Both the position numbers and the translations under genes were made by a program. Positions 6,310-51,895 of a stretch of DNA of 64,000 bases are shown one piece after another (positions within the stretch are counted from its first letter, which is position 1; each line of letters starts with the position of its first letter). Under the pieces are notes generated by a model. The model worked only from the letters and a program-made list of their open reading frames with translations, searched no databases and had not been told where the DNA came from. Location: NCBI GenBank assembly GCA_902582165.1, contig CACHQZ010000001.1, positions 186,001 through 250,000 on the forward strand, read 5' to 3'. The DNA comes from an uncultured Pelagibacteraceae bacterium (lineage in GTDB: Bacteria > Pseudomonadota > Alphaproteobacteria > Pelagibacterales > Pelagibacteraceae).

Positions 6310-8028
6310 TTATTTCTTTTTCTCTTTTTTACCAATAGCCTTTTCAAATATGCCTTTTAAAGTAGCTCCAGATTTTGTGGCGCCCTCACCAAATTTAGCT
6401 ATGAGAGATTTTTCTTCATCGATTTGAGCCGCCTTAACGCTTAATTTTATTTTCCTTTGGTTTAAATCAAGTTCTGTTATCTTAGCATCCAAGGCATTTC
6501 CAGGTGAAAACACCTCTGGTCTTGCATCCGCTGAGTCTTTAGCTAAGTCTAATTTTCTGATTGTTACAATCAATTTTTTGTCTTTATCAATTGACACTTT
6601 TACTCCAGTTTTTAGCACTTCGCTAATTCTAGTAGTAATTACGTCTCCAACATTTTTATTATTATCTTTAAACCAATCTAATGGATCTTTATCTAGAGCT
6701 CTTTTTGAAAATCTTATTTTTTCGTCTTTAACTTCTAAAATTTTAACATTTAATTTATCATTTTTTTTGTATCTCTTCAGGTCTTCAACGTTTTCATCAT
6801 AAGATAATTCTTTATAATGTAGCATTCCTGACAAACCTGATTCTTCAATTTCTCCAAATATTGCTTTCTCAGACAAAGAGCTGATCTTAATTTTAACCTC
6901 TTTACCTATCATGTCTTTTATTTTCTCCCAAGGATTATCCAAAGTTGCTTTATAAGATAAAGAAATTCTCTTAGTTTCTTTATCAATATTGACAATCTTA
7001 AACTTAATATTTTGTGATACTGCTAATATTTTACTTGGTTTGATGTTTCGATTTTTCCAATCTAATTCAGAACTATGTATTAAACCCTCAATACCGTCCT
7101 CAATTTTAACAAAGCATCCGTAATCCATTATTTTTGTTACTGTTCCCTCGTACACCTCTCCGACTTTATATTTTTTTTCTATATTTTCGTAAGGATCTTC
7201 AGTTAGCGCTTTAATTGAAGCAGAAACTCTATTTGTCTTTGCGTCAATTTTTGAAATTTTAACTTTAAGTTTTTGACCTATTGTCACTAAGTCAGAGGGT
7301 TTTTTTACTCTTCCATGACTTAAATCACTAACGTGCAATAAAGCGTCAATTCCATTTATATCTAAAAATATTCCCCAGTCTGTTGTAGCTTTTACAATAG
7401 CATTATCAACAATATCACCCTCTTTAATATTTTTTAAAGCCTCACTTATTTCAGCATTTTTACTTTTTTCTAGTACAGCTCTTCTAGATACGCAAACGTT
7501 TCCACGATTTTTATCAATTCTTGTTGCAATTACTTTTACTGGAGTATTCATAAGGTGGTCAATTTTTTTTAAAGGTCTCACATCAATTTGAGATGAGGGC
7601 ATGAAACAAGGCAAACCTTCAACAGTAGCGATAAATCCACCTTTAACTTTTCCAGTTATATATCCAGTCATTTCTTCTTGAGTTTCAAAAACTTTTTCCA
7701 TTTTTTTCCAAGCTTTCATTTTTCTAGCCTTGTCTCTTGAGATAATTATTTCACCTTTAAAACTTTCAATTCTTTCTAAGTAAACATCAATTTTAGATCC
7801 AACTTTTAATTTTGAAAGCTCATCATCATTTTTGAACTCTTCAACTGGTATCATACCTTCCATTTTTGCTTTACAATCAACAACAATATAGTTTTTTGTT
7901 ATTTCGGAGACTGTGGCTTTAATAATTTCGTTTTCTTTGAGTTTTCTATCTTTAAAATCTTGATCTAGTAAGTTTTGAAATTCTTTGTGAAGGGTATTAT
8001 TTCTTTTAATCTCTTGTTCAGTTGACAT
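6310..8028 (-). CDS. rpsA: 30S ribosomal protein S1
   Basis: multiple S1 repeats (DWGIFLDINGIDALLHVSDLS, DYGCFVKIEDGIEGLIHSSEL). Confidence 0.95.
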   Translation of the reverse strand: MSTEQEIKRNNTLHKEFQNLLDQDFKDRKLKENEIIKATVSEITKNYIVVDCKAKMEGMIPVEEFKNDDELSKLKVGSKIDVYLERIESFKGEIIISRDKARKMKAWKKMEKVFETQEEMTGYITGKVKGGFIATVEGLPCFMPSSQIDVRPLKKIDHLMNTPVKVIATRIDKNRGNVCVSRRAVLEKSKNAEISEALKNIKEGDIVDNAIVKATTDWGIFLDINGIDALLHVSDLSHGRVKKPSDLVTIGQKLKVKISKIDAKTNRVSASIKALTEDPYENIEKKYKVGEVYEGTVTKIMDYGCFVKIEDGIEGLIHSSELDWKNRNIKPSKILAVSQNIKFKIVNIDKETKRISLSYKATLDNPWEKIKDMIGKEVKIKISSLSEKAIFGEIEESGLSGMLHYKELSYDENVEDLKRYKKNDKLNVKILEVKDEKIRFSKRALDKDPLDWFKDNNKNVGDVITTRISEVLKTGVKVSIDKDKKLIVTIRKLDLAKDSADARPEVFSPGNALDAKITELDLNQRKIKLSVKAAQIDEEKSLIAKFGEGATKSGATLKGIFEKAIGKKEKKK

Positions 8029-14316: not shown

Positions 14317-14514
14317 CTAATTATTTAAAGATGCTGTGATAGGTTCTTTATTTTTGTTAGCTCTTTTTTCAGCGATTTTTTTCTCGATACTAGCTATCTT
14401 TAGATCAATCTTTGATAGTTTTTTTTGTTTAGTGCTTATCTTATTTTTAAGCTTATCGATTGATTTTAGTATTTTTTTCTTTTTCTTTTCGTTTTTTTTT
14501 AACTTTTTTTTCAT
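14317..14514 (-). CDS. small lysine-rich coiled-coil protein (65 aa)
   Basis: strong SD (GGAGG) 6 nt before ATG on the minus strand; heptad-like K/I/L pattern. Confidence 0.65.
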   Translation of the reverse strand: MKKKLKKNEKKKKKILKSIDKLKNKISTKQKKLSKIDLKIASIEKKIAEKRANKNKEPITASLNN

Positions 14515-43288: not shown

Positions 43289-43365
43289 GCAGCAGTAGCT
43301 CAGTTGGTTAGAGCACTAGTTTGTGGAACTAGGGGTCGGTGGTTCGAATCCACCCTGCTGTACCA
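43289..43365 (+). tRNA. tRNA-His(GTG)
   Basis: complete 77-nt cloverleaf with encoded CCA; anticodon loop TTGTGGA; acceptor GCAGCAG/CTGCTGT. Confidence 0.97.
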
Positions 43366-46396: not shown

Positions 46397-46453
46397 AGTT
46401 ACATTCTCATACTGGTTGTCATTAAGTCTTATATTATCTAGTCTTTTTAATTT

Positions 46454-46475
46454 TTGTTCATCAAAGTTCATCTAA
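46454..46475 (+). repeat. left flanking repeat of the RM island (2 units of GTTCATCAAA-like)
   Basis: TTGTTCATCAAAGTTCATCTAA, matching 50109-50143. Confidence 0.75.
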
Positions 46476-46485
46476 TTTACATCTC

Positions 46486-46507
46486 AATTCAAAAGGAATT
46501 CAAAAGG
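46486..46507 (+). repeat. perfect 11-bp tandem duplication
   Basis: AATTCAAAAGG AATTCAAAAGG. Confidence 0.85.
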
Positions 46508-46535
46508 TAAATTTTAGTGATATATATTACCTTTT
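46502..46535. promoter_or_regulatory. inverted repeat abutting the methyltransferase start codon
   Basis: AAAAGGTAA-N16-TTACCTTTT then ATG at 46536. Confidence 0.6.
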
Positions 46536-47552
46536 ATGAGATTCATTGGTTCTAAAAGATTACTTCTTAAAAACATAGAGTATGTAATTAATCAAAATAT
46601 TAAAGATAATGAAAACATTAATACATTTTGTGATATTTTTTCAGGGACCACAGTAGTTTCACAATACTTTAAAAATAAATATAAGATAATTTCAAATGAT
46701 TTGTTATATTTTTCTTTCTGTCTTCAAAAATCTTATCTTGAAATAAATAAAAAACCCAAATTTAAGAATTTAAATTTAGATACTGAAATTGAAGAATATT
46801 TAAATCAATCTAATCAACTAAAGGAAGGTTTCATCTATAAAAATTATTCTCCTGGCGGCAAAGAAAAAAGGAAGTATTTATCTGAAGAAAATGCAAAAAA
46901 AATTGATAATTTAAGATCTAAATTTAATAAGTGGTTAAAAGAAGATAAAATTGATAAAAATGAATATTACTATCTTGTATCACTGGTTGTTGAGGCAACT
47001 CCTTTCGTTTCAAATATTGCTGGTACATACGGTGCATATTTAAAGAACTGGGATAAAAGAAGTTTTAAGAAACTTGAATTAAATCCTTTGAATATTGTTA
47101 ATAATAATATGAACAACAAAAGTTATAATGAAGACTGTAATAATCTTATTAAGAGAATTGAGGGAGATATCATCTATTTAGACCCTCCCTATAATAGTAG
47201 ACAATATCTTCCAAATTATCATTTGTTAGAAACAATTGCAAAATATGATGATCCTAAAATAAAGGGTAAAACAGGTATAAGAGAATATGAAAATCAAAAA
47301 TCAAATTTTTGTAATAAATCCTATGCAGAAGATGCTTTGGAAAGTTTGATAAAAAATTCGAATTTTAGATATATTTTACTAAGTTATAATTCTGAAGGAA
47401 TAATCAGTGAAAGAAAGTTAGAAAAATTACTTAAGTCGTACTCTAATAAACTTTTTAAAAAATATAGATTTGATTACAGAAGATACAAAAAGGATAAAAA
47501 AACAAAAAAAGATAAACTGTATGAATTAATTCATATAATAGATAAGGACTAA
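46536..47552 (+). CDS. D12-class DNA adenine N6-methyltransferase (FokI-methylase-like)
   Basis: MRFIGSKRLLLKNI, FCDIFSGTTVV (motif I), IIYLDPPYNSRQY (motif IV). Confidence 0.88.
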   Translation: MRFIGSKRLLLKNIEYVINQNIKDNENINTFCDIFSGTTVVSQYFKNKYKIISNDLLYFSFCLQKSYLEINKKPKFKNLNLDTEIEEYLNQSNQLKEGFIYKNYSPGGKEKRKYLSEENAKKIDNLRSKFNKWLKEDKIDKNEYYYLVSLVVEATPFVSNIAGTYGAYLKNWDKRSFKKLELNPLNIVNNNMNNKSYNEDCNNLIKRIEGDIIYLDPPYNSRQYLPNYHLLETIAKYDDPKIKGKTGIREYENQKSNFCNKSYAEDALESLIKNSNFRYILLSYNSEGIISERKLEKLLKSYSNKLFKKYRFDYRRYKKDKKTKKDKLYELIHIIDKD

Positions 47553-48679
47553 TGGAAATAATCGATAAAAATAAACTCAATAATTTATTAGATAAAAAAT
47601 TATCTAAAAATGATATTGAAGAACTAAGCAAAGAAATAATAAAAAAAGTTAAAGAACTAAAAAAAAGAGAGAAAAATAAAAAAAGAAAAGAGCAATTAGA
47701 TCTTCTTGAGAAAAAATTTGATTTAAAAATTCTAAATAAAGAACAAATTAGTAAAATACCAAATTGGATAAAGAAAAACCTTAAAGATTGCAAAGTAATT
47801 GGAAGTTCAAAAAAAGTAATATTGACTAAAAATGGTCAAAAATTTCATCTCGATAACAAACTTAACGACCTAGCAGGAAATGAGTGGAGTTATTTTTTAA
47901 GATCTGTAATTAATACAAGATACTCCACTTCAGGCGAAGAGGGTTATGCACACCATGTAAGAAAAATTCACCCTTCTCCAAAACCACCTCAATTAATGAG
48001 AGACATAATTAAATTTTTTACTAAAGAGAATGAATATATTTTGGATTATTTTATGGGAGTAGGTGGCACTTTAATTGGAGCGTCTTTATCAAAAAGAAAT
48101 GCACTAGGAATTGATTTAAGTTCAAAATATATAACCGCATACAAAAAAGCATGTAAAGAACTTAAACTTAAGGAACAATCGACAATCAAGGGAGATTGTT
48201 TAGATATACTTAAAGATAAAAACCTTATCGAAAAATATCTTAAAAATAAAAAATTTTCACTTATAGCAATTGATCCTCCCTATGGAGATATGATGAGCAG
48301 AGAAAAAACAGGAGAAGCGATAAAGAAAAATCAATCAACCGATGCAACACCTTTTACAAAGAATAGAAGCGATCTAGGAAATATGGATTGGAAAAGTTTT
48401 AAAGAAAAATTTCTAGAGTCTATACATTTGTCTATACCTTTTTTAAAAGATAGAGGTCATTATGTAGTCTTCATAAAAGACCTACAACCAAAAGAGGGTC
48501 AAACTAACTTATTACATTCTGATCTAATTGAGGAAATGAACAAAATCGAAGGTCTTAACTATATTGGAATGAAAATTTGGGCAGATGAGTCTATAAATTT
48601 ATACCCATACGGTTATCCTCATAGTTTTGTCTCCAACCAACTTCATCAATATATTATGTTTTTTAGAAAAAAAAATTAA
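47552..48679 (+). CDS. second DNA methyltransferase (N6-adenine/N4-cytosine type)
   Basis: SPKPPQLMRDIIKFF, ILDYFMGVGGTLIGA (motif I), LIAIDPPYGDMMS (motif IV). Confidence 0.85.
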   Translation: MEIIDKNKLNNLLDKKLSKNDIEELSKEIIKKVKELKKREKNKKRKEQLDLLEKKFDLKILNKEQISKIPNWIKKNLKDCKVIGSSKKVILTKNGQKFHLDNKLNDLAGNEWSYFLRSVINTRYSTSGEEGYAHHVRKIHPSPKPPQLMRDIIKFFTKENEYILDYFMGVGGTLIGASLSKRNALGIDLSSKYITAYKKACKELKLKEQSTIKGDCLDILKDKNLIEKYLKNKKFSLIAIDPPYGDMMSREKTGEAIKKNQSTDATPFTKNRSDLGNMDWKSFKEKFLESIHLSIPFLKDRGHYVVFIKDLQPKEGQTNLLHSDLIEEMNKIEGLNYIGMKIWADESINLYPYGYPHSFVSNQLHQYIMFFRKKN

Positions 48680-50030
48680 TTTTATCTCTAAAGATTAAAT
48701 TATAATTTTTATCTAGTTGAAATTCAATTTTGTCTATATTTTTCTTCTTACCACCATTTATTATAAGACTTCTTTTATATTTATATTCAGGATAGTATTT
48801 TTTTAAAAATCTATTTTCAAATAAGTCAAAATGTTTAATTTCTTCTAAACCTTTGTCTACAGAATCAAACTTCTTACCTTCAAATTGATGAATTATTTTA
48901 TTTTTATCATCTCTTATTACTAGATCAGGTATTTTTCCTCCATCTGCTGAAAATTTCTTATCAATTTTTAATTCATTATTACTAATGTCATAAAAATAAC
49001 TTTTTTCACAACCACCATGGTTATCAAAAATTGTAATTAAATCATTATTTTCTAAAATCACTTGCGCAAGAATTGTTGCTACTTTTTCTTTGTCTTTTTC
49101 ATATTCCCAATAATCAAAATTAAAGTTTGATTTTGGTAAATTACAACCATCTAATTCAAAATTAATATAATTAGCAAGATTTACAAACTTGTTTGTGCCT
49201 ATCTTATTTTGAAGGACCTGATGATTTGTAATAAGAATTTTTTTTGTCCAACCAAGACTTCTAATCACTTTTGCAATAAGAGGTATTTGACCCATATTAG
49301 GATCATGACCAATCCTACCTGTATAGTTTTTGTTAGTTTTATTTGGATTAGCGAGTAAAGAAGAAATTTTAATTACATCATTTTCTTTTTTTATTTTTAT
49401 TGGGGTGTCATTTTTTCTAGTATTTGTATCTGCAATTTCATTTTTTAATTTAATAAACTCTTCTAAAGTTTCAAATTTTTTAAATTTTGAACTTTTTTTT
49501 CCCCAGAATTCAATCCCACATTCAAGATGATATAGAGATCTATTGATAAAATTGACTGATTTGTGATCTTCCTCCGCTTGTTCATGAGAAAAAAACATAA
49601 TAGGTTTTGTTTCTGCTTTATATTTTTGAATATAGTAATTTAATGTATTAAATTTACTAGATCTTTGACCCATTGCTGTATTTCTTGAGTCGTAAGAATT
49701 TGTTTTAGTTTCTTCAATTGCGTATACACAGTTTTTTAATATTTGTTCTGGTTTGGGTTCTTTTTCTTGAAGGAAAACTAAGAAGTCGACAAAACTTGAT
49801 CTACTCGAAATTAATCTAATAAAAATATTTTGTATCTTGTCAGATCTAACTTTAGAAATTTTAAATGCATGTAAGAATTTATTCTTCTCAATTAGTGGTT
49901 CTATTTTAAATTTTTCAATTTTTATATTCAGATTTTTAATTAAACTTGTTTTTTCTATAATTTTTTCTATGACCGCTTTTTTTGGTCTTTCTTCGGTTAG
50001 AATCCACAAGTTTTTATTGCTTTGTACCAC
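48663..50030 (-). CDS. putative restriction endonuclease (PD-ExK-like)
   Basis: convergent with the two methylases; PDLVIRDDKNKIIHQFEGKK resembles PD-x(n)-ExK; GTG start. Confidence 0.65.
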   Translation of the reverse strand: MVQSNKNLWILTEERPKKAVIEKIIEKTSLIKNLNIKIEKFKIEPLIEKNKFLHAFKISKVRSDKIQNIFIRLISSRSSFVDFLVFLQEKEPKPEQILKNCVYAIEETKTNSYDSRNTAMGQRSSKFNTLNYYIQKYKAETKPIMFFSHEQAEEDHKSVNFINRSLYHLECGIEFWGKKSSKFKKFETLEEFIKLKNEIADTNTRKNDTPIKIKKENDVIKISSLLANPNKTNKNYTGRIGHDPNMGQIPLIAKVIRSLGWTKKILITNHQVLQNKIGTNKFVNLANYINFELDGCNLPKSNFNFDYWEYEKDKEKVATILAQVILENNDLITIFDNHGGCEKSYFYDISNNELKIDKKFSADGGKIPDLVIRDDKNKIIHQFEGKKFDSVDKGLEEIKHFDLFENRFLKKYYPEYKYKRSLIINGGKKKNIDKIEFQLDKNYNLIFRDKINFFF

Positions 50031-50072
50031 AATAAAATTTTAGCAGATGGTCGTGTATAATCCAATAAAACC

Positions 50073-50098
50073 GTTATACGTGCAAATGCAAGTATAAC
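50073..50098. promoter_or_regulatory. operator-like dyad upstream of the putative endonuclease
   Basis: GTTATACGTGCAA/ATGCAAGTATAAC, 11 of 13 positions symmetric. Confidence 0.55.
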
Positions 50099-50108
50099 AT
50101 TTGATCAA

Positions 50109-50143
50109 TTGTTCATCAAAAGTTCATCAAAATGTTCATCAAA
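50109..50143 (+). repeat. right flanking repeat of the RM island (3 units of GTTCATCAAA)
   Basis: TTGTTCATCAAAAGTTCATCAAAATGTTCATCAAA. Confidence 0.85.
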
Positions 50144-50164
50144 CTTTTTTTCGTACAAATAAAA

Positions 50165-50192
50165 AAAAAGGCGAGTAAAAACTCGCCTTTTT
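50165..50192 (-). terminator. groEL intrinsic terminator
   Basis: AAAAAGGCGAGTAAAAACTCGCCTTTTT. Confidence 0.85.
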
Positions 50193-50218
50193 GAATTCTA
50201 TTGAGTGCTGAATGTGTC

Positions 50219-51895
<1,677 letters not shown>

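Follow-up and report, generated by a model that had tools for sequence, protein, structure and literature searches.

CIMEs (cis-mobilizable elements) have attachment-like repeats at both flanks and no recombinase gene, and they accrete in tandem with ICEs or IMEs at the 3′ end of conserved genes. The flanking repeats, the missing recombinase gene and the tandem accretion at such a 3′ end recur in the cassettes described here, which lie downstream of groEL in SAR11, a group considered to have few mobile elements. Modular build on the 3′-end repeats of an anchor gene in a streamlined aquatic host is also found in the additive flexible genomic island fGI-2 of Ca. Methylopumilus, where the repeats are tRNA tails (PMC10872708). 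Integron cassette arrays likewise consist of integrase-free modules that lie in one orientation at one site, and tycheposons are cargo-carrying, site-specific islands of streamlined marine bacteria. A classic survey sought attC sites in the hypervariable regions of SAR11 and found none (PMC2217521).

The groEL-site cassettes differ from each of these systems. Like CIMEs, they have attL- and attR-like flanks and lack recombination genes, but no ICE or IME with the same attachment site and a matching integrase was seen at groEL, in the junctions examined or in viral contigs; moreover, they are only about 0.15 (gene-less) to 4 kb long (3.8 kb in the cassette studied here) and have arm-like repeats, always on the left and in some cases on the right as well. 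Unlike fGI-2, they are anchored on a protein gene, with an 8-bp core, internal arms and a defined left end for each module. In contrast to integrons, no integron integrase adjoins the groEL array, many modules comprise several genes and are closed by a terminator, and folding of five left ends gave no attC hairpin (z-scores −1.15 to 0.78). Finally, tycheposons are anchored at a tRNA gene and contain a tyrosine recombinase, neither of which applies to the groEL-site cassettes, and unlike integrative elements of tyrosine recombinases in general, they encode no integrase of their own. From our point of view, they resemble a CIME-like variant of integrase-less site-specific accretion that is anchored on a protein gene, and no description of such a groEL-site array was found in the literature searched, which included few subscription journals or preprints.

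The window analysed is a stretch of 64,000 nucleotides from an uncultured Pelagibacteraceae bacterium (GCA_902582165.1, contig CACHQZ010000001.1). Its cassette comprises the following features:

46399–50218, no strand: whole cassette; of 138 hisG-groEL junctions in the genus, about 90 lack it
46399–46406, + strand: left core TTACATTC, boundary on the hisG side, copy of the groEL 3′ end, attL-like; single in empty sites, double here
46456–46472, + strand: putative left arm, a tandem pair of units (GTTCATCAAA and GTTCATC) separated from the core by about 57 bp
46487–46510, + strand: AATTCAAAAGGAATTCAAAAGG, which takes the place of the AATTCAAAAGATGA motif conserved in sister cassettes when the left ends are aligned in register
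46536–47552, + strand: M1, D12-class N6-adenine DNA methyltransferase (PF02086, 1.8e-40; PDLC03287, 1.9e-116)
47552–48679, + strand: M2, N6_N4_Mtase-family DNA methyltransferase (PF01555, 2e-23; PDLC03391, 8e-134)
48663–50030, − strand: R, type II restriction endonuclease with GTG start (PDLC03445, 4.8e-47; PD-X14-EGK motif)
50111–50143, + strand: putative right arm, GTTCATCAAA repeated three times in tandem at intervals of 11 and 12 bp, the first unit 107 bp from the groEL core
50165–50192, no strand: bidirectional intrinsic terminator of right-end class I (GGCGAGT-AAAA-ACTCGCC), also present in genomes G047 and G193
50219–50226, + strand: right core TTACATTC, the half of the putative attachment site retained by groEL

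The initial annotation had placed the insert at 46454–50143 and had taken the GTTCATC repeats as its boundaries, and both statements have to be revised. The insert is bracketed by the 8-bp direct repeat TTACATTC, with copies at 46399 and 50219, which represents the stop-codon end of groEL and reads on the + strand as the reverse complement of that end. In same-genus relatives with an empty site, hisG and groEL converge with their stop codons 2–6 nt apart (...GGTGAAATTACATTCCCATTCC...), and TTACATTC is present once (GTGAAATTACATTCCCATTCC), as opposed to the two copies around the window insert, which is the pattern of the core of an integrative element. The cassette therefore measures 3,820 bp from core to core and is bounded by the duplicated 3′ end of groEL, and the GTTCATC repeats are internal, the right tract lying 76–108 bp inside the right edge. 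Among the 138 same-genus genomes with hisG and groEL on one contig, we counted by hand from the coordinates about 90 near-empty and 48 occupied junctions (about 160 to 6,300 bp). As the compared genomes are mostly incomplete MAGs, figures for absence and copy number are soft. None of the 41 empty junctions inspected contains a tandem TTCATY tract. In keeping with the initial prediction, a remnant with a single tract and no cargo was seen in two genomes (G352, 151 bp; G431, 142 bp). Most of the 48 occupied junctions hold other cargo and no arms, so that the hotspot probably grows by other routes as well.

An insert flanked by 8-bp direct repeats could also stem from a DNA transposon with the groEL end as its target and an 8-bp target duplication. 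However, no transposase or integrase ORF was found between or beside the repeats of the window, in agreement with the initial annotation, and terminal inverted repeats are lacking, as left ends begin with TCATACTGG or GCCTACA and right ends finish with GTGTC, GGGGA or CGTA. Further, the tracts at one end repeat those at the other in direct, not inverted, orientation, and we regard a transposon as extremely improbable. The nearest tRNA gene, tRNA-His at 43289–43365, lies 3 kb to the left, beyond hisG.

The tandem repeats themselves are real and have the same orientation on both flanks, as first described. GTTCATCAAA occurs at 46456, 50111, 50122 and 50134, always on the + strand, and these are its only copies in the window (four versus 0.46 expected, a number reached by no shuffle), and the whole 954-kb assembly contains only nine copies. 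Related tracts do flank other cassettes, as had been anticipated, but the unit differs between cassettes. Across 24 left-armed cassettes the distance between left arm and core is discrete (45, 55, 57 or 58 bp), that of the right arm, where there is one, is 96, 104 or 107–111 bp, and these distances are close to helical steps. A right arm is recognisable in only six of the 24, the window included, and the other 18 show the left end only, perhaps because several right-end classes exist. All six both-armed cassettes carry the same unit left and right (GTTCATCAAA in the window, CTTCATCAC in L117, L360, L365 and L366, GTTCATCTA in L356), an outcome that by our own arithmetic has a chance of about 3% if these six are paired at random. 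Joined end to end, the cassette ends would give the order arm, core, arm, a layout like that of the attP of tyrosine recombinases, and by this analogy the tandem TTCAYY repeats may be the arm-type sites to which a site-specific recombinase, probably a tyrosine recombinase, binds.

Since the tracts lie 64 bp upstream of the M1 start and 81 bp upstream of the R start, and a promoter-like match on the − strand overlaps the right one, one could imagine that they are operators of the R and M promoters which are near the insert ends only by chance. Such tracts, however, also flank unrelated genes and are present in cassettes with cargo on the opposite strand (the third strict cassette of L356; L362) as well as in cassettes without any gene (L089, L103), which argues against operators of the cargo, and an RM homologue in genome G076 has no such repeats nearby. 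An operator role of this kind appears very unlikely to us.

The left end defines a family of cassettes: it begins with the core, which is followed after 45–58 bp by a tandem pair of TTCAYY units and next by AATTCAAAAGATGA or a related sequence. In 294 kb of island sequence, 24 ends with core and left arm were seen, compared with 0.02 in simulated sequence, and the 24 cassettes, which differ in cargo, always lie downstream of groEL and in a single orientation. Of the 397 genomes from the SAR11 family to which the window belongs, 16 contain the strict left-end motif, and its reversed control gave no match; in a second SAR11 family, the motif was found in none of 54 genomes. All eleven regions inspected from other genera are situated directly downstream of groEL, with hisG or a TypA-like gene on the far flank. 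Tandem arrays occur as well, for instance in G213 (L356), with cores at 7752, 9039, 9647, 10340 and 11498 and groEL at 14477; G464 (L358) contains three modules and G367 two. At the other end, genomes with different cargo share right ends of three classes (I, II and III), together with the respective terminators. In class III (L096, L121, L357, L362, L363), a palindrome, TTTAGAG-TGTT-CTCTAAA, lies about 10 bp before the groEL core and is possibly the site of a different recombinase or of a regulator.

We consider it probable that the insert is an integrase-less cassette with an RM system that entered at the groEL 3′ end by site-specific recombination, with the recombinase provided in trans. 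The groEL stop-codon region (TTACATTC, + strand) would serve as attachment site, where crossover would leave one core beside hisG and another one completing groEL, and the tandem GTTCATC units near both ends would be bound by the recombinase as arm-type sites. Successive cassettes would enter at the groEL-proximal core, and hence pile up in tandem with every left end facing away from groEL. The recombinase might be the single-copy Xer/Cre-like tyrosine recombinase that is conserved in the family. Once the cassette is inserted, M1 and M2 would protect the host DNA, while R would cut unmodified phage DNA. This reading is built on the observed empty sites, the duplicated core, the ends common to 24 cassettes, their single orientation and tandem arrays, and the intact RM genes with linked homologues; the function of the repeats as arms, the kind and identity of the recombinase, the sequence of insertions and restriction itself are inferred.

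It is also conceivable that the site is a replacement island, a hotspot whose cargo is swapped through homologous recombination within hisG, groEL and the shared ends, with no site-specific recombinase acting today; through such shared ends, homologous recombination could spread cassettes with no integrase at all. The occurrence of the same right-end classes and terminators in genomes with different cargo agrees with this, as do the many occupied junctions that hold genes of surface-polysaccharide type and no arms. Homologous exchange between conserved flanks has been proposed for SAR11 HVR2 (PMC2217521) and is the subject of PMC4033161. It leaves unexplained, however, why the core is duplicated exactly and, in several backgrounds, at a single base position, why the orientation is fixed, why every array joint has a core and why the spacing of the arms is conserved, and for us it is an unlikely, though serious, alternative.

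If the cassettes are indeed inserted by site-specific recombination, the question arises which enzyme acts on them. An integrase HMM, which recovered all of its 26 source sequences, found no integrase among the 367 ORFs of the insert loci, and no matching attP was found in viral contigs, where the matches to the arm pattern and to the core with left end were only unrelated ones or chance matches in coding sequence. In the window's SAR11 family (f1), one Xer/Cre-like tyrosine recombinase (54–79% identity) is near-universal, with one match in each single-contig genome, and a XerC/XerD pair was not detected in this family. In the second SAR11 family (f2), recombinase hits were weak and often came as two in one genome, which is what XerC and XerD would give. 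The f1 gene lies beside glycosyltransferase-type genes (L138, L139, L143, L146, L149, L151, L158, L162). An integrase has been reported in hypervariable region 2 of HTCC1062 (PMC2217521), and the neighbours of the f1 gene fit its identification, by context only, with this HVR2 integrase. We regard the f1 enzyme as the candidate for the trans-acting recombinase of the cassettes, but as it is near-universal in f1 its tie to them is only circumstantial; neither arm repeats nor the core were found near the candidate gene, and the window's own assembly, which is 85% complete, shows no copy.

The integrase encoded in the same genome as the window (G000, contig 13) was discarded as a partner, as it belongs to a phage-like region at a tRNA-Leu gene with no cassette repeats or core nearby. 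In this region (L291, contig C13, 8220–10600), a 453-aa tyrosine integrase adjoins tRNA-Leu(tag), and because relatives occur at this tRNA-Leu in G034 and G051 too, it is likely that the site is used by a family of SAR11 prophages.

As a tentative and rather doubtful extension, one could speculate about a distributed, integron-like capture system in f1, in which one chromosomal tyrosine recombinase, probably the HVR2 integrase, would insert integrase-free cassettes at the 3′ end of groEL and shuffle them via their TTCAYY arms and thereby supply genes for defence, restriction and secreted proteins.

As to the cargo of the window cassette, the arrangement of two methyltransferase ORFs on the + strand and a convergent endonuclease ORF on the − strand is as annotated, and all three are intact. 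R matches the PADLOC type II endonuclease model over residues 102–447. Its description as PD-ExK-like holds for the motif PD-X14-EGK, of which P368, D369, E384 and G385 are invariant and K386 is conserved in at least 90% of ten homologues. As to the fold, a structure search with the AlphaFold model (pLDDT 73) had Mus81 and BsoBI at the top and no hit below E 0.001. Relatives of R with 34–41% identity occur in Bacteroidaceae, Clostridia, Patescibacteria and a Campylobacteraceae MAG, and further ones on small plasmids of Psychrobacter and Bartonella and in Streptococcus phages such as Javan105; in the viral scan, no relative was found. Among 14 R loci, 11 have an M1 homologue, six an M2 homologue (one of them a weak partial match) and three both together with R; M1 and/or M2 homologues are present in 13, with one weak hit left out of this count, and plasmids and Streptococcus phage Javan105 are among the loci with such linkage. 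The domain matches, the linked homologues and the conserved motif therefore identify the cargo, at the level of sequence, as a bona fide two-methyltransferase type II RM system of a widely spread kind, in which R would restrict unmodified DNA. In families and linkage it corresponds to the PADLOC MTase_II / REase_II type (PDLC03445), but R is convergent to M1 and M2 here, whereas all three genes run in one direction in L314 and L316.

That this RM cassette is transferable, as had been suggested, is borne out by the mostly empty sites within the genus and by the rarity of its genes: an R homologue was present in one of 100 other genomes, which belongs to another family (41% identity), and M1 scored above the marginal level in one distant genome of about 300. 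In G076 (L053, 12310–16242), from another family of the SAR11 order, R and M2 homologues with a small gene between them occur without the repeats. In a marine methylome study, Pelagibacter genomes had methyltransferases without partner endonucleases (PMC9516812), and for this reason a complete RM system is notable in SAR11.

In other cassettes or cassette-bearing islands, defence genes are frequent but not universal. L084 encodes a helicase and two methyltransferases, L086 and L124 proteins that match mREase_II models, L049 a RecB/helicase-like protein, and L356 a D12 methyltransferase together with a protein weakly matching PtuB-type nucleases. An array that is anchored on a protein gene and has defined ends would give SAR11 a site-specific route to trade restriction and accessory genes, and the groEL cassettes may be the means by which these streamlined marine bacteria exchange accessory genes, those for defence included. 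How SAR11 acquires accessory genes thereby becomes a testable question, via core-to-core circles and the recombinase acting in trans.

Many groEL-site cassettes further encode small secreted proteins with a near-identical signal peptide, MKKLSLYIFLVLM, and differing mature parts, at the following loci:

L356, 9098–9559
L357, 6251–8910
L358, 3569–4024
L360, 6050–6715
L361, 7078–7716
L362, 4518–5111

In addition, a near-identical protein of 216–217 aa, to which no family was assigned, is encoded in cassettes of two different genomes (L365, 6520–7170; L366, 6578–7231).
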